From: a bacterium
Lineage (GTDB): Bacteria; CAIJMQ01; JAADFP01
DNA: 23,254 nucleotides
Assembly: GCA_027021085.1 (NCBI GenBank)
Contig: JALUVB010000280.1
Span: 1-23,254 of the forward strand
Direction: 5' to 3'
Shown: positions 2,286-20,440 of the stretch, in pieces
How positions within the stretch are numbered: position 1 is the first letter of the stretch
Layout: the number at the start of each line of letters is the position of its first letter
Translations under genes and position numbers: made by a program
The notes under the pieces: model-generated
What the model was told of the DNA's origin: nothing
Seen by the model: only the letters and a program-made list of their open reading frames with translations
Database searches by the model: none

Positions 2286-3488
2286 CTATACCACTACCTG
2301 GTTTTTCCCCTGCTCTTTTCCTTTGTAAAGTCTTTGGTCTGCTATGGAGAGAATTTTTTCCGGGGTATCACCGTCTTCAGGGTAAGTAGCCACTCCGAAA
2401 GTAATAGTAACATCCTTTTGGGGCATCTTTTCCTCTGCAGGAAATACATACTCTGAAACTTTTTCCCTCAGGTCCTCTGCCAGCTTCACGGCGCTTTTTT
2501 TATCGGTGCGGGGAAGTATCAATACGAATTCTTCCCCGCCGAAACGTGCCACAATATCCTGTCCCTTGGTATTCTTTTTGAGAATATTTGCAATAGTTTT
2601 GAGAACTTCGTCACCTGCAAGATGTCCCTGGGCATCGTTGTAGAACTTAAAATTATCGATATCTCCTATGATTAAGGAAAGAGGCTGGTGAGTTTCTTTT
2701 GCCTTCTGTATTTCAGCCTGGAGCTTCTCCTGAAAATGACGTCTGTTAAATACCTGGGTTAATCCGTCGGTTATAGAGAGGTACTTGGTTTTTTCCAGGA
2801 GCTCGGTATTCTCAATGATTAGTCCTGCATGCAGGGTGATAGAGCTTAGTAGTTCCAATTCCCGCGGAGTGAACTCGTAAAGTTCGCGGGTTAATACGCC
2901 CAGGATACCTATCCCTTTACCCTTTTCCACAAAAGGAGCGGCCAGAAGAGAAGAGAAGTTTTGGGCCATGTCTTTATATTTGGGAAAGGAGGCAAGATTG
3001 TTAATTAGCTTAGCCTGTGCTTTGTCTATAACCTCCTCCCTGAGAATCTCGGGGATTTCTAACCCTGGCTTTGAATAGAAATGAAAGGCAAAGTTTATCT
3101 CTTCCGAATATACTTCCATGAATACTACATCGCCCGGGAAGAATTGTTCTATCTCCTTTGCAATATCTTCCAGTATTTCTTTAAGACCTCTTCCTTCCGA
3201 CGATTTTTCAATTAAGCGGCGGGTAAAAGATAATATATGACTCTCCTGGGTGCGGTCAGTCAGGGCAAGTTCTATTTTCTGATACTTTCTCTGTAAATCC
3301 TTGATTTGTTGAAAGCGGACGGTATTTGTTATTCTCCAGAAAATAAGAATTAAAATAAGGGAAAAATCACAGATAATCAGAATATAGAAAGGATTTCTTA
3401 AAGTACCGTAGCCTACTCCTATATGCAGGGCAACTATGATGGCAATCCATATGGCAAAGAGAAAAGTTGCTATTCTTTCAAGAAACAA
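2286..3488 (-). CDS. Membrane-anchored GAF-GGDEF diguanylate cyclase
   Basis: Predicted to make cyclic di-GMP from two GTP at the inner membrane. The order is two N-terminal membrane segments (about 6-28 and 33-52), a short coiled-coil linker (about 60-85), a GAF-like sensor region (about 85-230), then a GGDEF domain (about 235-400). The active-site loop is GGEEF (317-321), with metal-binding Asp276 in GDIDNF and the usual DGLTQVFNRR entry motif (241-250), so catalysis looks intact. The product-inhibition I-site, normally RxxD five residues before GGEEF, reads KGQD (308-311), so feedback inhibition may be weak. The start is TTG at 3488 with GGGGA about 6 bases upstream; this start keeps the first membrane segment. 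It lies 47 bases downstream of the ABC ATPase and is probably in its operon. The GAF call is by pattern only. Confidence 0.88.
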   Translation of the reverse strand: MFLERIATFLFAIWIAIIVALHIGVGYGTLRNPFYILIICDFSLILILIFWRITNTVRFQQIKDLQRKYQKIELALTDRTQESHILSFTRRLIEKSSEGRGLKEILEDIAKEIEQFFPGDVVFMEVYSEEINFAFHFYSKPGLEIPEILREEVIDKAQAKLINNLASFPKYKDMAQNFSSLLAAPFVEKGKGIGILGVLTRELYEFTPRELELLSSITLHAGLIIENTELLEKTKYLSITDGLTQVFNRRHFQEKLQAEIQKAKETHQPLSLIIGDIDNFKFYNDAQGHLAGDEVLKTIANILKKNTKGQDIVARFGGEEFVLILPRTDKKSAVKLAEDLREKVSEYVFPAEEKMPQKDVTITFGVATYPEDGDTPEKILSIADQRLYKGKEQGKNQVVV

Positions 3489-3535
3489 GTTTTTCCCCGC
3501 TCCGATTACTTCTCTCCACGCTGGAATTATCCTGC

Positions 3536-4267
3536 TTATTCGCCTTCAATTTCACCCACTTCTATGGAAACATCGGCTCTTCTTTCCACTCTTTCTATTC
3601 TTCCGTCTCTTATCCAGAAAATGCGGTCAGATACATCAATCATTTTCAGGTCGTGGGTAGCAGAAATAATGGTAACCTGTTTTTCTCTGTTCATGGTTTT
3701 TAAGAGACTTATAATCTCTTTTCCTGTCTTAAGATCCAGGTTTCCCGTAGGTTCGTCTGCCAGAACGATTGCCGGGTCATTTGCCAGTGCCCTGGCTACG
3801 GCTACCCTCTGTTGCTGTCCTCCCGATAACTCAAAAGGTTTATGGTGTACCCTGGTACCCAGCCCCACTCTTTCCAGCAGTTCTACTCCTTTGTCCCGTG
3901 CATCATCAAGACTCATTCCCGCAAATATCATGGGGAGAGTTACATTTTCCAGGGCAGTCATTACCGGGATGAGGTTGAAAGTTTGAAAGATGTATCCTAT
4001 TTTTCTACATCTTAGCCAGGCTAACTCGTAGGCATCCAGTTGAGCTACATCTACTTCGTCTATGTAAACTCTTCCTTCGCTGGGCTTGTCAAGCCCTCCA
4101 ATCATGTTGAACAGGGTGCTCTTACCCGAACCTGAAGGGCCCATTATGGATATATATTCCCCTCTTCTCACTTCCATATCAATACCCCTGAGTGCTTCTA
4201 CCACTACTTTTCCCAGGTGATAGATTCTTTTGACTCCTCTTGTTCTTACTACCATATCTTCTGGCAT
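3536..4267 (-). CDS. ABC transporter ATPase, LolD/MacB/FtsE-like
   Basis: Cytoplasmic ATPase of 243 residues in the class that pairs with MacB/LolE/FtsX-type permeases (mechanotransmission machines that work on the outer face of the inner membrane). Motifs: Walker A GPSGSGKST (43-51), Q-loop Gln95, signature LSGGQQQR (147-154), Walker B IVLADE (167-172) and His205. DEPTGNLD is typical of this class. The start ATG has a strong GGGAGGT about 7 bases upstream. It follows the mini-permease gene after a 57-base gap on the same strand, so the two form one transporter. The cargo is unknown; the PqqD-like gene just upstream hints at a peptide, which is inference. Confidence 0.92.
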   Translation of the reverse strand: MPEDMVVRTRGVKRIYHLGKVVVEALRGIDMEVRRGEYISIMGPSGSGKSTLFNMIGGLDKPSEGRVYIDEVDVAQLDAYELAWLRCRKIGYIFQTFNLIPVMTALENVTLPMIFAGMSLDDARDKGVELLERVGLGTRVHHKPFELSGGQQQRVAVARALANDPAIVLADEPTGNLDLKTGKEIISLLKTMNREKQVTIISATHDLKMIDVSDRIFWIRDGRIERVERRADVSIEVGEIEGE

Positions 4268-4324
4268 TTTTTTACCTCCCTCTGTCGCTCCTCCTTAATT
4301 TCAAAAATTATAATTCCCTTACCT

Positions 4325-4960
4325 TTATTCTTCTCTTCTCATTGCTTCTGCCGGTACCATGCGAGCTGCCCTGTAGGCAGGATAGATTGCCCCCAGTGTG
4401 GTCAAGACTATTCCCACCACCAGGGAGAAAAGTATATAACGGAACAACTCAAGAAGGGGAAATACTCTGAGTACTTCACTTCCGTAGTTTATCAGGCTTA
4501 TCAGGGTTACCCCTAAGGTTCCTATAATAATACCCAGCAGAGAGCCTGCTATCCCCTGGAAGAGTGATTCCAGCAGAAACAATCTAATTACAAAGCTGTC
4601 CAGGGCACCTAAGCATTTCATGGTACCAATCTCCCTGTATCTTTCTGTAACAGACATGAGCATGGAATTTGTTATCCCCACTGCACATACTAATAACGAA
4701 AGAGAAATTAGCCACCTCATGCGGGCCTGGGTGCTTTCGTCCACTGTTATTTTTGCCGCTATGGCAGGCGAGCCACGGGAAATTAAAGCATTCTGGATAG
4801 ATGCCTGAGCTAAGATTGACATTAAGAATGCTATAGTCAGTAGTATTCCCATGATGGTAATGAACGACCTTCCCAGTCTTATGCGCATAGAGTTAAAACT
4901 TATTCGTACAGAAACGGAAAAAGGAAGAACAATCTGCCTACCCACTTTTTCCTGATTCAT
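4325..4960 (-). CDS. Minimal MacB/FtsX-family ABC permease lacking the periplasmic domain
   Basis: A 211-residue permease with four predicted membrane segments (about 31-52, 81-102, 128-157, 168-192). Family signatures are clear: the N-terminal SFNSMRIRLGRSFITIMGIL, the coupling-helix motif TERYREIGTMKCLGA (104-118), and the C-terminal PAYRAARMVPAEAMR (194-208). MacB/LolE relatives usually have about 370-650 residues, with a roughly 200-residue periplasmic core between segments 1 and 2. Here that loop is only about 28 residues. There is no frameshift sign: the reading frame is clean, the start overlaps the PqqD stop as ATGA, and the end retains the conserved tail. It therefore looks like a naturally reduced form. 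A permease of this shape would probably act within the membrane or recruit another periplasmic partner. Confidence 0.85.
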   Translation of the reverse strand: MNQEKVGRQIVLPFSVSVRISFNSMRIRLGRSFITIMGILLTIAFLMSILAQASIQNALISRGSPAIAAKITVDESTQARMRWLISLSLLVCAVGITNSMLMSVTERYREIGTMKCLGALDSFVIRLFLLESLFQGIAGSLLGIIIGTLGVTLISLINYGSEVLRVFPLLELFRYILFSLVVGIVLTTLGAIYPAYRAARMVPAEAMRREE

Positions 4961-5322
4961 ATTTTCCTCCCCGTAATATTAAGCCCTATAAGGTGTTTGG
5001 ACATTAACTTCCTGAGATATTCCAGCGTAGAGACCTCTGCCTCCTTTCTGCTAAGATTATAACGTTCTTGGATAGATTTGACAATATCCTGGACAGAATT
5101 TTTACCGTTACACATTTTCCAGACCTCTGAACCCAGTAAATCCAGGTGGATATTTTTCTGCTCCGGAAACCCGAACAAAAAGCGCCACAACCTGGAAGGT
5201 TTGCTTTGTTTCATGGGAACACGTAGTTGCAGTTCTTCTTCATTATCGTCCCAGGTAATCAGGGTATTCCTGAGAGGCTTTGCGCTGAGCAACGTTTTCC
5301 GGTCAATTGGTAGTTTCTTCAT
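4957..5322 (-). CDS. PqqD-fold protein (RiPP-recognition-like)
   Basis: A 121-residue protein from ATG at 5322. That start is chosen because it forms an ATGA overlap with the upstream gene's stop; a TTG at 5337 would add five residues. The C-terminal half matches the PqqD family pattern: a strand with DLLGSEVWKMCNGKNSVQDI, then helices ending near LRKLMSKHLIG. PqqD domains bind leader peptides in RiPP pathways, alone or fused to radical SAM enzymes, but many stand-alone family members have no proven role. The N-terminal half (about 55 residues) is basic and unassigned. Its stop overlaps the permease start by 4 bases, so it is probably made in proportion to the transporter. No radical SAM enzyme or precursor peptide is visible nearby. 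Confidence 0.75.
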   Translation of the reverse strand: MKKLPIDRKTLLSAKPLRNTLITWDDNEEELQLRVPMKQSKPSRLWRFLFGFPEQKNIHLDLLGSEVWKMCNGKNSVQDIVKSIQERYNLSRKEAEVSTLEYLRKLMSKHLIGLNITGRKI

Positions 5323-6155
5323 TTTTCCTGATGACAATATATTTTAAGCAGGGAGGGATCAGTATTTCCGGTTACCAGAAAAATCCGCCGGGAAATGGGA
5401 CAGTACCATGAAACGCCTTTTTCCCAGGCAAGAGAAAGTGTCTTCTTTTTGTAGCGGAAGTAAAAGTAAGAGTGGTTATCTCTTTCTTCCTGTTTCTCTT
5501 CTATAATTTTCCCTCCCATTCTCTCTTTGGTCCAGGCGGAAAGGGGTTGCTTCTTCAGGAGAATATTTCCCAGGGCTATCTGGGAGAGAGAAATCTCTCC
5601 CTTTCCTTGTGTCTCCTGGAAGGTGAAGGTAATATCTCCTGCTTTGAGGGATGAACTTATTCTTTTTAAGTTTTCGGGGGCAGAGAAGACCAATTTGTAA
5701 ATTGCCCAGGTCTCCCGCCCTTGCTCAGGGTGTTCCGAGAGAGAATTTAATATGCGGGTAAAAATTTCCTTACTACGCCTTTTGTCCGGAAAATAGACCC
5801 TCAGGAAGAGTACCCGGCCGCACTTTTTGCAGTAAGATACGCTTGAATAACCCTCTTCATGGTTTTTCCAGTGGAGTATGGCTCCGCTTTTATCTGCAAA
5901 AAAGTTAGTTTTGATTTTTACGATATTGCATTTAATATTCTTGCCTTTTTTAATCAGCTCTTTCATGTATTTTTCTATTAGATTTTCCATGGAGAAGGTG
6001 GATTTGGGGTACTCCCACTCTACCTCCACCCTTATACTGTACCCATCGTCCAGGGAGAAGGTTCCCTTCTCACGGTTGCCATCTACAGAGGAGAGCTCCC
6101 AATCTTCGGGAACTGACAGGTTAATGCCTTCCCATCCGGTGAGTTTCCAGTTCAT
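5319..6155 (-). CDS. Uncharacterised cytosolic protein with two similar halves
   Basis: I do not recognise this 278-residue protein. It has no signal peptide or membrane segment. The first half (about 10-140) begins GINLSVPEDWELSS and continues with strands, a helix (about 55-70), then GAILHW, a CxxC pair (Cys109, Cys112) and a closing helix. The second half (about 150-275) repeats the plan: KLVFSAPENLKRISSS, FTFQETQGKGEISL, a helical part, then YFYFRYKKKTLSLAW and WYCPISRRIFLV with Cys252. The VPEDWE opening resembles PsbP/DcrB/Mog1-fold proteins, but that is only a guess. It overlaps the Gfo/Idh gene before it and the PqqD gene after it by ATGA, so it is probably part of the PqqD-transporter cassette. 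Confidence 0.7.
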   Translation of the reverse strand: MNWKLTGWEGINLSVPEDWELSSVDGNREKGTFSLDDGYSIRVEVEWEYPKSTFSMENLIEKYMKELIKKGKNIKCNIVKIKTNFFADKSGAILHWKNHEEGYSSVSYCKKCGRVLFLRVYFPDKRRSKEIFTRILNSLSEHPEQGRETWAIYKLVFSAPENLKRISSSLKAGDITFTFQETQGKGEISLSQIALGNILLKKQPLSAWTKERMGGKIIEEKQEERDNHSYFYFRYKKKTLSLAWEKGVSWYCPISRRIFLVTGNTDPSLLKIYCHQEK

Positions 6156-7066
6156 GAGAGAGATTTTTTCAATATTTCCCTGATTTTGCAGGCTAATGCT
6201 AATGAATCCAGGGCTTCTTCCCCTCTGACCAGGGGTTGGGTATTATTTTTTATTGCCTTGATGAAATCCAGCAGTTCTTCCCTTAAAGGATCTGGGTTCC
6301 GGAAGGTTTTGGTGTACTTAACTATCTTTTCCTTCTCTTTTCGGTAGATTTTCATTTCTCCCTCCGGGAAACTGAGAGAGAAGTACCCCCCCTGCTCAAA
6401 AACTCTGAGCTTTCTGATTCTTTCTTCTGATACCCGGGAAGCCGTAATATTTGCCACGCATCCGGAGGAAAAAGTAATCCGTACGTTTGCAATGTCTTCG
6501 TGAGAAGATATCACGCATGCACCCAGTGCCTCGATTTTTTTTACGGGCTCCCGGAGAAGGGAAACTATTAAATCCAGGTCATGTATCATCAAGTCCATTA
6601 TTACGCCTGTATCTGTACCCCGGTAAGGAAAAGGGCCCAATCTGTGTACTTCTATAAAGCGGGGAGAAGAGATCTTTTTCTTTAGAAACTGGATACCTGG
6701 GTGGAATCGTTCAATCATACCTATTGCTATAATGGCCTTTTTATCTCTGGATAATTCTACGAGTCTTTTTGCCTGCCATAAGCGTAAGGTAAAAGGTTTT
6801 TCTATAAGTATGGGGAGGGAAGCGGAGAGGAAAAATCTGGATATGTCATAATGAGAAGAAGCGGGGGTAGCAACGATAACTCCCTGGGATGCCTGCCTTA
6901 GTTCCTTTAATGATTTAAGCACCGGTGCTTCCACATCTTTTCCCAGCCCTTCGGCTCTCTCAGGAGATATATCCACTATGCCGCTTATTTTTACTCCTAA
7001 TTCTTTTAATTTGCGGGCATGCTTCCTGCCCTGTGCACCTGCTCCTACGATTCCTATTTGCAACAT
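6152..7066 (-). CDS. Gfo/Idh/MocA-family NAD(P)-dependent sugar oxidoreductase
   Basis: A 304-residue dehydrogenase of the glucose-fructose oxidoreductase family. The N-terminal Rossmann fold has GAGAQG (8-13) and VDISPERAEG, which sets cofactor binding. The catalytic EKP triad is at 89-91. The C-terminal half has the MIHDLDL motif (160-166), whose His162/Asp163 are the usual substrate and proton-relay positions. Such enzymes oxidise or reduce a hydroxyl of a sugar or nucleotide sugar. One family member, GnnA, oxidises UDP-GlcNAc for lipid A with diamino sugars, and the lipid A genes lie just upstream on the same strand. However, a 206-base repeat-containing gap separates them and no GnnB aminotransferase is visible, so the substrate stays open. 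The ATGA overlap with the next gene ties it to the PqqD cassette. Confidence 0.88.
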   Translation of the reverse strand: MLQIGIVGAGAQGRKHARKLKELGVKISGIVDISPERAEGLGKDVEAPVLKSLKELRQASQGVIVATPASSHYDISRFFLSASLPILIEKPFTLRLWQAKRLVELSRDKKAIIAIGMIERFHPGIQFLKKKISSPRFIEVHRLGPFPYRGTDTGVIMDLMIHDLDLIVSLLREPVKKIEALGACVISSHEDIANVRITFSSGCVANITASRVSEERIRKLRVFEQGGYFSLSFPEGEMKIYRKEKEKIVKYTKTFRNPDPLREELLDFIKAIKNNTQPLVRGEEALDSLALACKIREILKKSLS

Positions 7067-7145
7067 TTACCCTAACCTCTGGCCGCTAAAATTTTACTAA
7101 TTTTACACCATGTGCGACTTTTAACGTTAACTGTCCATAAAATGC

Positions 7146-7185
7146 CCTGCCCGCTTCTAACCCCGATTTATATCGGAGGGGCAGG
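7146..7185. repeat. Nested inverted repeat between the lipid A operon and the Gfo/Idh gene
   Basis: The outer stem is CCTGCCC (7146-7152) with GGGCAGG (7179-7185); the inner stem is CCGAT (7163-7167) with ATCGG (7172-7176) around TTAT. The inner hairpin recurs at 20423-20438. On the - strand it lies downstream of lpxI and is followed by only a short run (GCATTTTATGG), so it might end lpxI transcripts weakly. I call it a dispersed repeat first. Confidence 0.7.
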
Positions 7186-7198
7186 AATCTATTCTCCC

Positions 7199-7212
7199 TA
7201 ACTACTCGCTAC
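7199..7212 (-). repeat. Two-unit remnant of heptamer family A
   Basis: Read on the - strand this is GTAGCGA then GTAGTTA, two units of the family-A heptamer. With the inverted repeat at 7146-7185 it shows that this 206-base gap holds decayed pieces of the same repeat types as the window ends. A perfect palindrome TTAACGTTAA also lies at 7121-7130. I see no gene in the gap. Confidence 0.5.
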
Positions 7213-7272
7213 TAAATTCATCATTAAGGTACCTTCACTCATTCAAATTCAAAAGAAAAGTCGTACATAGGG

Positions 7273-8067
7273 TTAACTTTCCCTTATCCATCCGCTTATG
7301 CTTATGTCCAGCGAATTTGCCATCTCCAGAAATTTTTCTTTCTCCATGATTATAGTTTTTCCTGCCCCTATTGCCATGGCTTTTATGCCTGCCTTATGCA
7401 TTACCTGCAGCGTTCTTATTCCTACGGCAGGAGGGTCCCAGCGGAGGTCTTCAACGGGACGGGGTACTTTGGCTATCCCGCCTTTTTTTCCCCACTTTCC
7501 TCCTCTAAGTATGGTCTCGTCTGTGCCCTCTACGGCTTCTACTGCTGTAACCGTACCATTCCTGGCTACCACTGTATGCCCTATTCCCAGGGAAGAGAGT
7601 ATTTTACCAGCTTCCCAGGCTATACGCAGGTCTTTTTCTTCTTCTTCATCAGGCTTTCTCCGGGTAAGTATTCCCTTTTCTGCCAGCCATGAAGCCAGGA
7701 ATTTCCCGGGGTCGGGAAAGAGAAATCCTTCCCGGAGCAGTAATTTCTCCAAACCATTGAGAATAGTCTTATCATGGAAATTCTTCAGGGAGGCGAAAAT
7801 ATTCTGGGCTAATTTGTCCCATGCGTTGTAACCCATTATTTCCCGCTTGTCTATTTTGCCAGAGAAAAATAAATTTTTTACTTTTTCTTTCTTCAGAAGG
7901 CTGATAAGTTTTGCGAGTTCTCCCAGTTTAACCCAGTAATGGGGAGAGAATGGGGGAGGGGATTCAACAATACCTACGGTCACAAGGCATTCTCCTTTTT
8001 CCTCGATTTTATCTTTGAGGTAATGAGAAATAACTCCTTTTCCTGCTATAAGTGCCCACTTGCTCAT
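7273..8067 (-). CDS. UDP-2,3-diacylglucosamine pyrophosphatase LpxI
   Basis: Cleaves UDP-2,3-diacylglucosamine to lipid X and UMP, the fourth step of lipid A synthesis, at the inner face of the inner membrane. This is the LpxI (DUF1009) family, unrelated to LpxH. The 264 residues match family length. Seen: N-terminal WALIAGKG, SGKIDKREIM (69-78), TVTAVEAVEGTDETILRGG (172-190) and the C-terminal WDPPAVGIRTLQVM (210-223), whose Asp211 corresponds to the conserved metal/catalytic Asp region. The start ATG overlaps the lpxA stop as ATGA. It is the last gene of the envelope operon. LpxB, which often follows, is absent here. Confidence 0.93.
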   Translation of the reverse strand: MSKWALIAGKGVISHYLKDKIEEKGECLVTVGIVESPPPFSPHYWVKLGELAKLISLLKKEKVKNLFFSGKIDKREIMGYNAWDKLAQNIFASLKNFHDKTILNGLEKLLLREGFLFPDPGKFLASWLAEKGILTRRKPDEEEEKDLRIAWEAGKILSSLGIGHTVVARNGTVTAVEAVEGTDETILRGGKWGKKGGIAKVPRPVEDLRWDPPAVGIRTLQVMHKAGIKAMAIGAGKTIIMEKEKFLEMANSLDISISGWIRES

Positions 8068-8840
8068 CGGTGGAAACCTCTCTTAGAAGTTCTAATGAAT
8101 CCTATTAATTCCTGTATTTCTTTAATGTCACCTTCTTCCTTCTCCAGTAATTGCAGTGATTCTTTGAGAGCCTGAGAAGAACGAAATATTATCCGGTAGG
8201 CCTTCTTGAGAGCTTTTATTGTCTCTTTACTAAAGCCTTTGCGTTTTAACCCTATGCTGTTTAGCCCGTATATTTTCAGCGGATGTCCGTCTGCCTTGAG
8301 GTAAGGACATACATCCATGGAAACCTTGGAGCAGGCCCCAATGATAGCCAGCTTGCCAATTCTGCAAAATTGATGTATTCCCACTAACCCTCCGATGACC
8401 GCGTGGTCCATTATTTCCACGTGTCCGGCCAGGGATGCACAGTTAGCCATTACCACGTAATTACCTACCACGCAGTTGTGAGCTATGTGTGAGTAAGCCA
8501 TTAAATAGTTATGGCTACCTACGCGGGTTACTTTTTCCTTTCCGGAAGCGCGGTGGATGGTGGAGAATTCCCGGATGATATTCTCATCCCCGATTTCCAC
8601 GAATGTTTTCTCTTCCTGATAAAAAAGGTCTTGAGGGGGTGTGCCTATGACCACAAAGGGAAAAATTTTGTTGTTCTTCCCTATACGTGTCCATTTTTCT
8701 ATATGTGTATGGTGCTGGATTACTGTGCCTTCCCCAATGAACACCTCTTCTCCTATATTAACGTATGCTCCTATTTCTGCCCCTTCCGCGATGATTGCGG
8801 AGGGGTGAATGGTAGCTGTGGGGTGAATGATTTTAGCCAT
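8064..8840 (-). CDS. Acyl-ACP:UDP-N-acetylglucosamine O-acyltransferase LpxA
   Basis: Moves a 3-hydroxyacyl chain from acyl carrier protein to the 3-position of UDP-GlcNAc, the first lipid A step. At 258 residues it is the usual length for this left-handed parallel beta-helix trimer. Hexapeptide repeats run from about 3 to 180 ([19 protein letters not shown] onwards). The catalytic His121 sits in HIAHNCVVG, matching His125 of the E. coli enzyme, and GIHQFCRIG and [11 protein letters not shown] are family hallmarks. The C-terminal helical part (about 190-258) is present. It overlaps lpxC/fabZ by 8 bases and lpxI by 4, so the three are translationally coupled. The acyl chain length cannot be read safely by eye. 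Confidence 0.95.
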
Positions 8841-10119
8841 ACTGTTTTTCTGCCAGGGAGAAGAGGAATTCCCCTTCTACTACGAGGTTCCCCTTTACAG
8901 AGGCCTGAGCCCTGACTTTTCCGTGGCGAGGCTTTAGTTTTGTGATTTCTGCTTCGATAAGCAATTGGTCGCCTGGTTTTACTATTTTACGAAATTTTGC
9001 CTTCTCAATGCCGGCAAAGTAGGCTATTTTCCCCTTGTTTTCTGTACGGGAAAGCAATAAAACCCCGGCTACCTGGGCCATTGCCTCCAGCATGATTACT
9101 CCGGGCATGATGGGATAACCAGGAAAGTGCCCCTGAAAAAAGGCTTCGTTAAAAGAAAGATTTTTAATCCCTACCACACGTTTCTCCCCTTTGACGATGA
9201 TTCTGTCCACAAAGAGAAAAGGATAGCGATGGGGAAGTATCTCCATAATTTCTTCCACGCTCATCTCTTTTTCCATGTTTTCCCCCTTCTTTATCTGTTG
9301 AGCCATTTTTATGTTTAGAGAATGGCCTGTTTTTACCGCCTTTACAAAAACGTTCCTGAGTGTTTTGCCGGAAAGGAACAAATCCCCCCATAGATCCAGG
9401 ATTTTATGCCTGAGAAATTCGTCCGGGAATCTCAAAGAAGGGGAGATTACTTGCTCTTTGTCAAGGAGTATGGTATTCCCCAGATCCCCTCCTTTGTAAA
9501 AGCCTTTTTCAATAAGGGGCTGTAGCTTTTCCTGGAATCCGAAGGTGCGGGCAGGGGCAATTTCCCGGCGAAATGTCTCCCTATCCAGGGAGAATTCGCC
9601 GTAAAGGTTGGAGAGTAAAGGATGCGGGAAGTCCAGCAGGTAACCTATCTTATTTAAAGGAGAAGGAATTATAATAATATAGGAATCTTCTTCCTGGACA
9701 CACCAGGGATAGGAAGGAGCCCAGGATTCCTTGGTCCCCTTCAGCTCTTTTATTCCGGCTTCCTCAAGGACTTCCACAAAGGGCAGGGCACTGCCATCCA
9801 TTATGGGGGGCTCGTCGCTGTCTATTTCGATGGTGAGGCTGTCTATACCTATTCCTGCCAGTGCTGCCAGGAGGTGTTCTACCACCCTTATCTTTACCCC
9901 TTCTTTCTCCAGCACCGTGCTGGAGAATTCATGCCGGGCAAACTCGCAGGAAGCAGGAACCAGCGGCCTGCCCGGAATATCAATTCTCCTGAATACTACG
10001 CCCTGGCCCGGGGAAGAAGGAATAAATTTCAGGCCTACTGCTCTTCCGCTTAAAAGCCCCTTCCCTTTAATCTTAGCTTCTTTGAAAAGTGTGGTCTGTG
10101 AAAGGTTATTTTCCTTCAT
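8833..10119 (-). CDS. LpxC-FabZ fusion: lipid A deacetylase plus 3-hydroxyacyl-ACP dehydratase
   Basis: One 428-residue chain with two enzymes. Residues 1-280 are LpxC, the zinc deacetylase that commits UDP-3-acyl-GlcNAc to lipid A. VEHLLAAL carries Glu81 and zinc ligand His82, IMDGSALPF is at 106-114, and [13 protein letters not shown] carries His238 and Asp242, with His266 in TGHSLN. Residues 282-428 are FabZ, which dehydrates 3-hydroxyacyl-ACP. [13 protein letters not shown] leads into [12 protein letters not shown] with catalytic His331, and Glu345 lies in LEAMAQ. Both active sites look intact. Such fusions are known in Bacteroidetes and some other diderms. The fusion links enzymes that compete for the 3-hydroxyacyl pool. 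It overlaps skp by 14 bases and lpxA by 8. Confidence 0.96.
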
Positions 10120-10609
10120 TTACATACTTTACTATTTGCTCGGTAACATCCAACCCTTCATCTACGTAGAGTGCGCTCTTTTTATCCAGGATTATCTGGT
10201 AGCCTTTCTCCTTGGCGAATTTAGCAACCTTTGCTTCCAGGTCCTGGAGTATTTTGTCAACTTTTTCCTTTCTTTCCTGCATCATTGTCAGGTTAGAAGA
10301 TTTAATTTTTTCTTCCAGGGCCTGTTTCTTTTCTGCTAACTCCTTGCTTTTTTGTGCCTTTGCTTCCTTTGAAAGTGTCCCGGATCCCAGGACCTTTTCC
10401 AGGGAAGAAATATCATTCCTGATTTTACTTATTTCCTCCTGTAAACTATTAGCTTTTGCTTTCAAGTAGGCATCGGCTTTCTTTGTCTCAGAGTAAGATT
10501 GAAACACCTTAAATAGATCAGCACAGGCTATCTTTGTTGTACCTGCGTAAAGTGTCCCTGTTATTAACACCATGAAACCTACCAGTACCAACAATCCTAA
10601 CTTTTTCAT
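10106..10609 (-). CDS. Skp/OmpH-family periplasmic chaperone
   Basis: A 167-residue secreted protein expected to hold unfolded outer-membrane proteins on their way to BamA. Residues 1-22 are a signal peptide (basic MKK, hydrophobic core, cleavage near LYA-G). The mature part starts with a strand ([14 protein letters not shown]), continues as long charged helices that would form the coiled-coil tentacles (about 45-130), and ends in a strand pair around [21 protein letters not shown], all typical of Skp. AGAGGTG lies about 6 bases before the ATG. It sits 25 bases after bamA, the classic order, and overlaps lpxC/fabZ by 14 bases. LpxD, often next in this operon, is not here. Confidence 0.92.
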
Positions 10610-10634
10610 TTTTCACCTCTTTCTCTGAAGGTTA

Positions 10635-12890
10635 CTAAAAAACATACCCAAAGGAGAAGTTTAACCTTCCTCCTTTTTTGCCTAAAGGTATGCCGTAATC
10701 CACTGACACAGGACCTATGGGAGTCTGGAGCCTTATCCCCGCTCCTACACTCTCTTTGAGGTCGCCAAAGTTTATATCTCCGGGCTCTCTCCATACATCG
10801 CCAGCATCAAAAAATAATACACCTTTTAATACTTTCTCTACCAAGGGGTACTTGTATTCCAGGTTGAAGAGGAAATATGCTTTCCCACCGATGGGATTGC
10901 CCTCTTTGTCTTCCGGGCCTATCCCCCGGTAAGGATAGCCACGTACACTTCCCAGTCCTCCCAGGAAGAACCTTTCAAATATAGGCACTTCGTCGGAAGA
11001 GCCGTAGTTATTAACGTATCCTCCCTCTACATGGGTACTCCAGACGAATCTTTCTTTCCAGGGGAAGTAGCGGAGAAAACTACCCCGCAGTTTGTAGAAA
11101 TCCCGGTTTCCTCCCAGTGGCCCACCGGCTATTTCCAGGCTTCCCGAAGTAATAATGCCCCGGGAGGGATCAAATACGTTGTCCCGCGTATCCAGGGTGA
11201 TCCCGGCCATTATGCTGGAAGTATCATTCGTGCCTTCTTCCTTCTTAATTTCTTCTCCTACGTCCGAGGCCAGGTTGGATATATTAACCGTTTGGTATCT
11301 GTACCTTGCATAGAGGGAAAGGTCTTCTGAAAGTTTTTTCCCTGCTCTTATGGCTATACCCTTCCTTCTTTCGTCGTATTTATCCCACTGCCTGAGAGTA
11401 TTAAACAGGTCGAATCCCAGGGATATGGGCCTATCCCGGAAATATGGCTCGGTGAAACTGAGGGAATAATCTTCTCTTACACTGCCTATGGTGGCAGAGA
11501 GTTTTATTTTTTGCCCGCCTCCTGTAAATGAGGGAGGATTGGTTATATCAAAGTTATTCTGTTTTAGCTCTACGTATCCTATTGCCTGTTCAATGGATGA
11601 GTAACCCAGGCCAAAGGTGAGCATACCTGTTTTTTTCTCTTCTACTTCGAAAATTAAATCACGGTAGTTTGGGATACTGGTAGGCCTGGTGGTTACCTTT
11701 ACTTCTTTAAAGTATCCCAGGTTGAATATCTTCTCCCTGCTTCTTCTTACCTTGTCACCCTGAAACGGTTCACCGGGTTTAATGGTAATCTCACGCCTGA
11801 TTACCTTGTCTTTAGTGCGTGTATTCCCTTTTATTTCAATCAAACGGACATATATTTTGGGGCCTTCTTCTATCTCGTAGTGGATATTTACCTGTTTTGT
11901 AGCATTGTTAATGTCCGGTACAGCCCAGACCCTGGTGGTTATGTAGCCGGAATTGGCATAAAGGTTCTCTATCTTTTGGGCTTCCCATTCCAGGATGAGG
12001 GGGTTATAAGGTGAGCCTGCTTTCATGCTGAGCACGGAGAGGAGTTTTTTGGAGGAAAAAAGTTTATTGCCTGAGAAATCTATTGCTTTGACCTGGTACC
12101 TATCTCCTTCCTTTATTTTTATGGAAAGGGTGAGAAATCTTCCTGTGGGGTCGTAAGATACCTCTTTTTTCTCAATTTTTGCATTGATAAATCCCTTGCT
12201 TTTGTAGAGGTTTATTATTCGGCCGAGGTCTTCTTCCAGCACCTCTTTCCCAAAGGTTCCTCTCCAGAAAAAACTGGCTTTCTTGGTTTTCATTACCTTG
12301 AGAATCTGGGGAGTGGGAATGTGCTTGTTTCCGCTAATTTTAATTTCTTTTACTTTTATTCTTGGCCCCTCATTGATATTAATTACCACTTCCACTTTTC
12401 CCTTGTTTTCCTGGTAACTTGGAGTAACCTTAACTTTGTAGAATCCTTTCTTCTCGTAGAGTGCAACTATCCTCTCTATATCCTTCTTCAAAGCTGTATC
12501 TACGAAAATATCTCCCTCAGAAAGAGCCATGGCTTTTTTAATCTCGTCCTCGTTTAATGCCTGGTTACCGCTTATTTTAATACTGGATATGTAAGGTTTC
12601 TCTACTACCAAGAAGGTGACTTTTACTCCGTTGCGAAAATCACTAACATCTACCGAGACATCGGAAAAATAGCCCAGCGAATATATTCTCTTTATATCTT
12701 TCTTCAGGATTTCCCGGGAAAGTGGTTCCCCTACTTTTGTTCTTACCCGGGAAAGGATAAAAGCAGAGGATACTCTACGGTTTCCTCTAACTTCCAGTTT
12801 CTTTACTACCTTCCCCTCCTGGGCAAGCAGTAGCAGAGAGAATGAGAAAATCAGCAATGCAAGGATGAGTATAGTAGGCTTTCTATGCAT
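10635..12890 (-). CDS. Outer-membrane protein assembly factor BamA (Omp85)
   Basis: Central subunit of the machine that folds beta-barrel proteins into the outer membrane. Of 751 residues, 1-23 form a signal peptide (LILALLIFSFSLLLLA). Five POTRA domains then fill roughly 29-420, visible as repeated KEIKISGNKHI/KAIDFSGNKLF-type starts, each with a GEP/GDIF strand and a YxxxGY helix. The rest is a 16-strand-type barrel. The conserved lid-loop motif VRGYPYRG is at 649-656, and the chain ends in Phe751, the aromatic C-terminal residue expected of such barrels. The start overlaps accD by 8 bases and has GGAGAGG just upstream. No BamB-E lipoproteins are seen nearby. Confidence 0.97.
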   Translation of the reverse strand: MHRKPTILILALLIFSFSLLLLAQEGKVVKKLEVRGNRRVSSAFILSRVRTKVGEPLSREILKKDIKRIYSLGYFSDVSVDVSDFRNGVKVTFLVVEKPYISSIKISGNQALNEDEIKKAMALSEGDIFVDTALKKDIERIVALYEKKGFYKVKVTPSYQENKGKVEVVININEGPRIKVKEIKISGNKHIPTPQILKVMKTKKASFFWRGTFGKEVLEEDLGRIINLYKSKGFINAKIEKKEVSYDPTGRFLTLSIKIKEGDRYQVKAIDFSGNKLFSSKKLLSVLSMKAGSPYNPLILEWEAQKIENLYANSGYITTRVWAVPDINNATKQVNIHYEIEEGPKIYVRLIEIKGNTRTKDKVIRREITIKPGEPFQGDKVRRSREKIFNLGYFKEVKVTTRPTSIPNYRDLIFEVEEKKTGMLTFGLGYSSIEQAIGYVELKQNNFDITNPPSFTGGGQKIKLSATIGSVREDYSLSFTEPYFRDRPISLGFDLFNTLRQWDKYDERRKGIAIRAGKKLSEDLSLYARYRYQTVNISNLASDVGEEIKKEEGTNDTSSIMAGITLDTRDNVFDPSRGIITSGSLEIAGGPLGGNRDFYKLRGSFLRYFPWKERFVWSTHVEGGYVNNYGSSDEVPIFERFFLGGLGSVRGYPYRGIGPEDKEGNPIGGKAYFLFNLEYKYPLVEKVLKGVLFFDAGDVWREPGDINFGDLKESVGAGIRLQTPIGPVSVDYGIPLGKKGGRLNFSFGYVF

Positions 12891-20101: not shown

Positions 20102-20163
20102 TAGACTTTAGACCATAGACCTGAGACTTTAGACTGGGAGATAGTGAGCAGTGAATAGTGAAT
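20102..20163 (+). repeat. Heptamer arrays of families C and B in tandem
   Basis: Five period-7 units of family C (TAGACTT, TAGACCA, TAGACCT, GAGACTT, TAGACTG at 20102-20136), a 6-base linker, then three units of family B (AGTGAGC, AGTGAAT, AGTGAAT at 20143-20163). Each unit keeps its core and varies at the last bases, which suggests old duplications that have since drifted. Confidence 0.85.
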
Positions 20164-20171
20164 AGATGGCT

Positions 20172-20200
20172 GGTATCCTGGTATCTTGGTAATCCTGGTA
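20172..20200 (+). repeat. Octamer array GGTATCYT
   Basis: GGTATCCT, GGTATCTT, GGTAATCCT (one base longer), then GGTA. This family has period 8, unlike the heptamers around it. It recurs at 20369-20392. Confidence 0.75.
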
Positions 20201-20254
20201 TAACTTTGAGGGATGTTAGGATTTGCAAGAATGACAAGCAACCAGTCCACCTGT

Positions 20255-20276
20255 CATGCCTGCGGAAGCAGGCATG
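20255..20276. repeat. Perfect hairpin with GGAA tetraloop
   Basis: CATGCCTGC (20255-20263) pairs perfectly with GCAGGCATG (20268-20276) around GGAA, a GNRA-type loop. The flanks read CTGT on the left and CAGG on the right. Palindromes of this look (TGTCATGCC...GGCAT.CAGG) are common as dispersed repeats in many bacterial genomes. No T-run follows, so a terminator role is unlikely. Confidence 0.8.
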
Positions 20277-20283
20277 CAGGAAA

Positions 20284-20363
20284 GTAGTGAGTAGCGGGTA
20301 GTGAGTAGCGAGGGGAAGGATAGTAAACAGTAAATAGTGAACAGTAAGCAGTGAACAGTGAAT
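20284..20363 (+). repeat. Second copy of the composite heptamer array
   Basis: Four family-A units (GTAGTGA, GTAGCGG, GTAGTGA, GTAGCGA at 20284-20311), linker GGGGAAGGAT (20312-20321), then six family-B units (AGTAAAC, AGTAAAT, AGTGAAC, AGTAAGC, AGTGAAC, AGTGAAT at 20322-20363). It matches 2-73 in order and orientation, with a linker one base longer and one more B unit. Confidence 0.9.
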
Positions 20364-20368
20364 TTCCC

Positions 20369-20392: not shown

Positions 20393-20414
20393 GCCCGCAT
20401 GTCATGTCCGTATG

Positions 20415-20440
20415 CTCCCGACCCCGATTTATATCGGGAG
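20415..20440. repeat. Inverted repeat with two alternative stems
   Basis: CTCCCGA (20415-20421) can pair with TCGGGAG (20434-20440), or CCCGAT (20423-20428) with ATCGGG (20433-20438) around TTAT; the two stems exclude each other. The inner hairpin is the same as at 7163-7176. It lies 67 bases before birA. Confidence 0.75.

Follow-up and report, generated by a model that had tools for sequence, protein, structure and literature searches.

A PqqD-family protein and a miniature MacB-type permease that co-occur with giant permeases: a candidate asymmetric type VII ABC system

What does a PqqD-family protein do beside a stripped-down ABC transporter? The question is raised by a bacterial contig of 23,254 nucleotides (JALUVB010000280.1; the whole stretch analysed is referred to here as the window), in which the following genes lie side by side.

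2286..3488, minus strand: diguanylate cyclase with two TM segments, GAF and GGDEF; accessory
3536..4267, minus strand: ABC ATPase of the LolD/MacB type, motifs all intact
4325..4960, minus strand: PERM, a 211-aa type VII (MacB-type) permease with four TM helices and without periplasmic core domain
4957..5322, minus strand: PqqD-family protein, 121 aa from the ATG (126 aa from a TTG at 5337)
5319..6155, minus strand: REP2, a cytosolic two-repeat protein of unassigned fold, with Cys/His motifs in most copies
6152..7066, minus strand: Gfo/Idh oxidoreductase resembling UDP-GlcNAc 3-dehydrogenase

A preliminary description, made from the letters of the window, took these genes for a RiPP-like export or sensing unit without the usual modifying enzyme, in which PqqD and REP2 may capture a peptide or protein tail and hand it to a mini-transporter with c-di-GMP signalling attached. 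The comparison with other genomes reported below points to a larger machine.

The cassette and its proteins

The six genes, their coordinates and their minus-strand orientation agree with the preliminary description, as do the four-base ATGA overlaps that join Gfo/Idh to REP2 (6152–6155), REP2 to PqqD (5319–5322, with PqqD read from its ATG start) and PqqD to PERM (4957–4960). PERM is separated from the ATPase by 57 bases and the ATPase from the cyclase by 47. Pfam scores of the window proteins were 71.1 bits for FtsX (PF02687), 116.7 for ABC_tran, 171.9 for GGDEF and 76 for Gfo/Idh. Upstream of the cassette are genes for LpxI (assigned by Pfam) and for LpxA, an LpxC-FabZ fusion, OmpH and a BamA-like protein (assigned by reading the translations); LpxC and FabZ are apparently fused in a single ORF at 8833–10119. 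Intergenic repeats were seen at 1–71 and 20134–20368 (AGTAGCGGGTAGTG / GTAAACAGTGAACAG type) and at 7153–7176 with 20414–20437 (CCCCGATTTATATCGG), and the promoter and terminator scan gave matches not above chance level. The sole close relative in the named-genome scan was a Caldisericota MAG with the same gene order and a PqqD protein of 93% identity.

The assignment of the 121-aa protein to the PqqD family holds (PF05402, 45.4 bits at a curated cut-off of 23.4), and solved structures of the family matched it at 3.9e-9, the best being lasso-peptide and PQQ chaperones. What it shares with PqqD and RiPP recognition elements is the core, LD.IG..VW..CDG, which scores above the Pfam cut-off. It differs from canonical PqqD in a conserved N-terminal extension (R..L.A.P.RN) and in an amphipathic insertion ahead of the core (S(K/R).F..P..R), and further from these elements in its tie to a transporter, with no maturase or precursor found.

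REP2 matched no Pfam family and gave no credible match among solved structures. Its two repeats, as previously claimed, are real: the profile of the N-terminal half matched that of the C-terminal half at 95.8% probability, as compared with at most 1.1% in 20 column shuffles. Cys/His motifs are present in both repeats of the window protein (5319–6155) and a terminal Cys-His pair in most relatives, possibly forming a metal site. Neither a TM segment nor a signal was predicted for REP2 or for PqqD.

In PERM, approximately 32 residues lie between TM1 and TM2; in MacB and LolC/E this position is taken by a periplasmic domain of approximately 200 residues (PMC5985334). The protein fits the type VII (MacB) superfamily by PF02687, its four TM helices and its coupling helix, while the periplasmic core domain typical of that superfamily is missing. 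The coupling helix, which contacts the ATPase in this class, reads VTERYREIGTMKCLGA, and ERxxEIG is present in 19/19 PERMs. Walker A, signature and Walker B motifs were intact in all ATPases examined. The ATPase is 67–85% identical to its counterparts outside the genus of the window, which is high for such a wide spread of relatives.

Distribution of the genes and a giant partner permease

The order REP2-PqqD-PERM-ATPase-cyclase is common to the window, to a genome of its class (G005) and to one from outside the class (G044). Identities to the window in these two genomes were 85 and 84% for the ATPase, 57 and 52% for PERM, 40 and 37% for PqqD and 30 and 28% for REP2. Since the order REP2-PqqD-PERM-ATPase recurs in unrelated families, the cassette is not a product of chance.

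Among 386 genomes, a giant permease (GIANT) was found in 19, and PERM, counted at E 1e-30 or better, in precisely those 19, with a single copy in each. If the genomes were independent, the chance of identical 19-genome sets would be 1e-32, a figure inflated by their relatedness; 14 families are involved. The PqqD subfamily is present in 16 of the 19 and in none of the 367 others, with a clear gap between the weakest true match (5e-37) and the best match in any other genome (6e-17). REP2 was found in 14 of the 19 and, at 1e-8, in 0/367 others. Scattered genes, or the lack of a PqqD match, would have counted against the preliminary description; instead, the genes co-occur in related genomes, and the proposed tie of PqqD to the mini-permease is supported by this co-occurrence. 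The idea of a stand-alone stripped-down transporter did not survive: within the 386 genomes PERM was seen only together with its giant partner, and with zero cases of PERM without GIANT this candidate was rejected.

Three genomes (G130, G267, G352) are without PqqD and REP2 and two (G223, G081) without REP2 only; in G130 and G267, PERM and ATPase are present in the absence of both adaptors. As all genomes lacking PqqD (3/19) or REP2 (5/19) are at least 90% complete, neither adaptor is indispensable. The core thus consists of PERM, GIANT and the ATPase, to which PqqD and REP2 are added as dedicated components that can be dispensed with.

PERM is not always adjacent to GIANT. A single cluster GIANT-OPT-REP2-PqqD-PERM-ATPase is found in G044 and G342, and in G394 one run reads DUF6785-TPR-GIANT-OPT-REP2-PqqD-PERM-ATPase. 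The cassette of G044 is directly preceded by a 1478-aa GIANT and a 656-aa OPT-like protein. The GIANT of the window genome (1462 aa, 50% identical to that of G044) is encoded on another contig (G000:C8, locus L033 5675–10063), preceded by a DUF6785/DUF6784 gene and followed by an OPT-like gene. In the genomes of the window, G223 and G352, the gene for the SRP receptor FtsY is found immediately upstream of GIANT genes (L033 2057–5662, L071 7102–8034). Between FtsY and the TPR/GIANT genes, an unannotated 73-aa two-helix membrane protein is encoded at L033 2929–3150 (G000:C8), and such an ORF is likewise upstream of GIANT in G001, G081, G130, G223, G267 and G352. Two related ATPases each were seen in G045, G190 and G322 (L014/L171, L077/L173 and L076/L172, respectively), one by PqqD near GIANT and the other by an unlinked PERM.

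GIANT starts with a segment resembling a signal peptide; the remainder of its N-terminal part holds a domain similar to M28 peptidases, additional domains and three TM helices. The C-terminal part is a MacB-type core (a fourth helix, a periplasmic core domain and three more helices) followed by a tail of approximately 150 residues. The periplasmic core domain matched PF12704 at 2.8e-6 in G044 and 1e-8 in G190, and the coupling helix follows SVYERxxEIGxYSxVGLAP, a pattern that in its strict form fails in 3/21 GIANTs. All 20 sequences covering the region have Phe, Tyr or Pro in place of the first metal-ligand His of the M28-like domain, and all have lost the catalytic Glu pair, for which most GIANTs have a pair ending in His. 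We therefore rejected GIANT as an active M28 peptidase, and this loss suggests that the domain serves in binding or has a structural task. LysM domains occur in the three longest GIANTs only (G045, G322, G190).

GIANT is carried by 58 of 64 genomes in the G287 phylum, by many of them in several copies, and each of the 17 GIANT-bearing genomes tested besides G287 has a single PERM and a single PqqD. Four genomes of the GIANT-less family f146 contained no true PERM or PqqD; only weak matches were returned, which in the case of PERM were permeases of approximately 420 aa. The closed genome G433 has at least six GIANTs at six places, with 36–53% mutual identity. Only one of these is followed by OPT, REP2 and PqqD, and PERM-ATPase is at a different place. 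From gene counts alone, we infer that in genomes with multiplied GIANTs a single PERM and a single PqqD are shared among them.

The genes at the edges of the cassette are less firmly linked. Gfo/Idh, previously counted as a member of the unit, adjoins REP2 in the class of the window only, and there it stands beside LpxI; with its linkage so confined it was excluded from the system and probably belongs with the lpx genes. It scored 166 bits against the UDP-GlcNAc 3-dehydrogenase model, under the cut-off of 450, and its place next to LpxI suggests a GnnA-like function in a lipid A variant with a 3-amino sugar. The cyclase has an intact GGDEF motif (GGEEF) and, in the window copy, KGQD instead of RxxD at the inhibitory site. 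It adjoins the system in 7/19 genomes, so that attached c-di-GMP signalling applies to these seven and not to the rest.

For the RiPP context, 18 system loci were scanned. No radical SAM gene was found within 5 kb using a profile built from three proteins of the window genome; other maturase classes were judged by the annotation of the main genes. Near PqqD, no small precursor-like ORF was conserved between genera at these loci, a comparison that a lineage-specific precursor would escape. The small conserved ORF upstream of some GIANTs encodes the two-helix membrane protein and not a leader-type peptide. These scans give no support for a RiPP cluster in the window. Elsewhere in the genome, at L104 (G000:C239) 6863–11177, a second, canonical PqqD is accompanied by three radical SAM genes, with an O-antigen-ligase-like gene adjacent; this is likely a true RiPP-type or cofactor cluster.

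A proposed asymmetric complex and its alternatives

We assign a probability of about 0.62 to the reading that REP2, PqqD, PERM and the ATPase of the window would, together with GIANT, make up an asymmetric type VII ABC complex, as its cytosolic, energising half. Against it count that PqqD and REP2 can be absent, that PERM does not always adjoin GIANT and that three genomes have two ATPases. The ATPase dimer would bind two unlike permeases, PERM and GIANT, as their anatomy and co-occurrence suggest. On binding of ATP, the helices of PERM and GIANT would close and so move the giant periplasmic arm, by analogy with mechanotransmission in MacB and LolCDE. The OPT-like proteins, whose genes lie next to that of GIANT, are probably partners of the complex, and PqqD and REP2 may serve as dedicated cytosolic adaptors docking a polypeptide onto the complex, most likely a tail of the cargo or the cytosolic tail of GIANT. 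AlphaFold models of PqqD and REP2, calculated from two-sequence alignments, had mean pLDDT values of 45 and 36, respectively, and were left out of fold searches; because these models are too poor, we can only infer the asymmetric complex. Its likeliest job would be to move peptide-like or lipid-linked cargo at the interface of inner membrane and periplasm, a proposal which we hold with considerable doubt, the cargo being a guess. With MacB and MacAB-TolC the system has in common the type VII permease fold, the coupling helix and, in GIANT, the periplasmic core domain. It differs in that the ATPase is separate, the permeases are two and unlike, and no MacA or TolC partner was recognised in the clusters.

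A LolCDE- or YbbAP-like machine might instead extract lipoproteins or hydrophobic molecules from the inner membrane, with GIANT as acceptor arm and the OPT-like protein as accessory. This is rather unlikely, even though the closest models are LolD for the ATPase and LolC/E and MacB for PERM and two unlike permeases with a four-TM core stand beside a LolD-type ATPase, as in LolCDE. The scores all remain under the NCBIfam cut-offs (231.7 of 307.75 bits against LolD, 55.6 of 362.45 against LolCE), PERM is without the periplasmic domain, GIANT is 3–6 times as long as LolC/E, OPT-like and PqqD partners are added, and the window genome has a further FtsX-type permease, of normal length (385 aa, C250). 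YbbAP-TesA joins a type VII ABC to a hydrolase (PMC12646458), which recalls the M28-like domain; in GIANT, however, permease and hydrolase-like domain form one polypeptide, and the site of that domain looks inactive.

Nearly every GIANT adjoins an OPT-like gene, and an ATP-coupled importer could therefore be envisaged in which an OPT-like pathway is gated by GIANT, PERM and the ATPase. The inactive M28-like domain, its fold retained and its catalysis lost as in a binding domain, would act as a receptor for a peptide or another substrate. DUF6785 and the OPT-like protein, aligned over their whole length by hhalign (92.7%, E 4e-7), are distant homologues as judged by these profiles, which also fits. 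We consider an importer unlikely, as the similarity to OPT is weak (31.0 bits against PF03169, above the cut-off of 25.8; 19.8 bits against TIGR00728, below that of 128.35) and we know of no type VII ABC that drives an OPT protein.

Cell-wall signalling in the manner of FtsEX, in which a machine controlled by c-di-GMP would regulate a peptidoglycan enzyme through its GIANT arm, appears more doubtful still. The separate ATPase and permease, the LysM domains and the adjacent cyclase in seven genomes agree with it, but LysM is confined to those three longest GIANTs, no hydrolase was recognised within the clusters, and the scores stay under the cut-offs (FtsE, 196.9 of 264.85; FtsX, 35.5 of 255). 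Moreover, multiple GIANTs per genome suit varied substrates better than a single division signal.

A RiPP-like unit without maturase, whose PqqD would recognise a small peptide by its leader and pass it to the mini-transporter, is unsupported and very improbable. In its favour, the PqqD match exceeds its cut-off, with lasso-peptide and PQQ chaperones as the best solved relatives, and a PqqD-like protein encoded close to a transporter is usually the sign of a RiPP cluster (PMC7470986); the authors of RRE-Finder nevertheless caution that such proteins also occur outside RiPP contexts (PMC7470986). It was rejected because the scanned loci showed neither a radical SAM maturase nor a precursor-like ORF conserved between genera; moreover, three genomes keep the transporter without PqqD, and the window genome has its separate canonical PqqD/radical-SAM cluster.

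Significance

A literature search with most subscription journals outside its coverage returned no paper that joins PqqD, FtsX and an ABC transporter; in the same search DUF6785/6784 went unmentioned, and PqqD and MacB were found together only in two unrelated genome papers. As far as could be found, a PqqD-linked giant MacB-type machine is previously undescribed. The genes define an uncharacterised system of several proteins that is widely conserved, with representatives in 14 families of the 386-genome sample and in 58 of the 64 genomes of one phylum. A recognition fold of the RiPP type is here linked to an ABC machine with no RiPP context in sight. The ratio of one core to many GIANTs leads to a concrete prediction, namely exchangeable ABC subunits. 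Speculatively, and with odds well against it, this would be a new envelope machine in which one core of ATPase, mini-permease and PqqD powers interchangeable giant permease-receptors with OPT-fold partners, and PqqD, taken from RiPP biology, may recognise a cytosolic tail.
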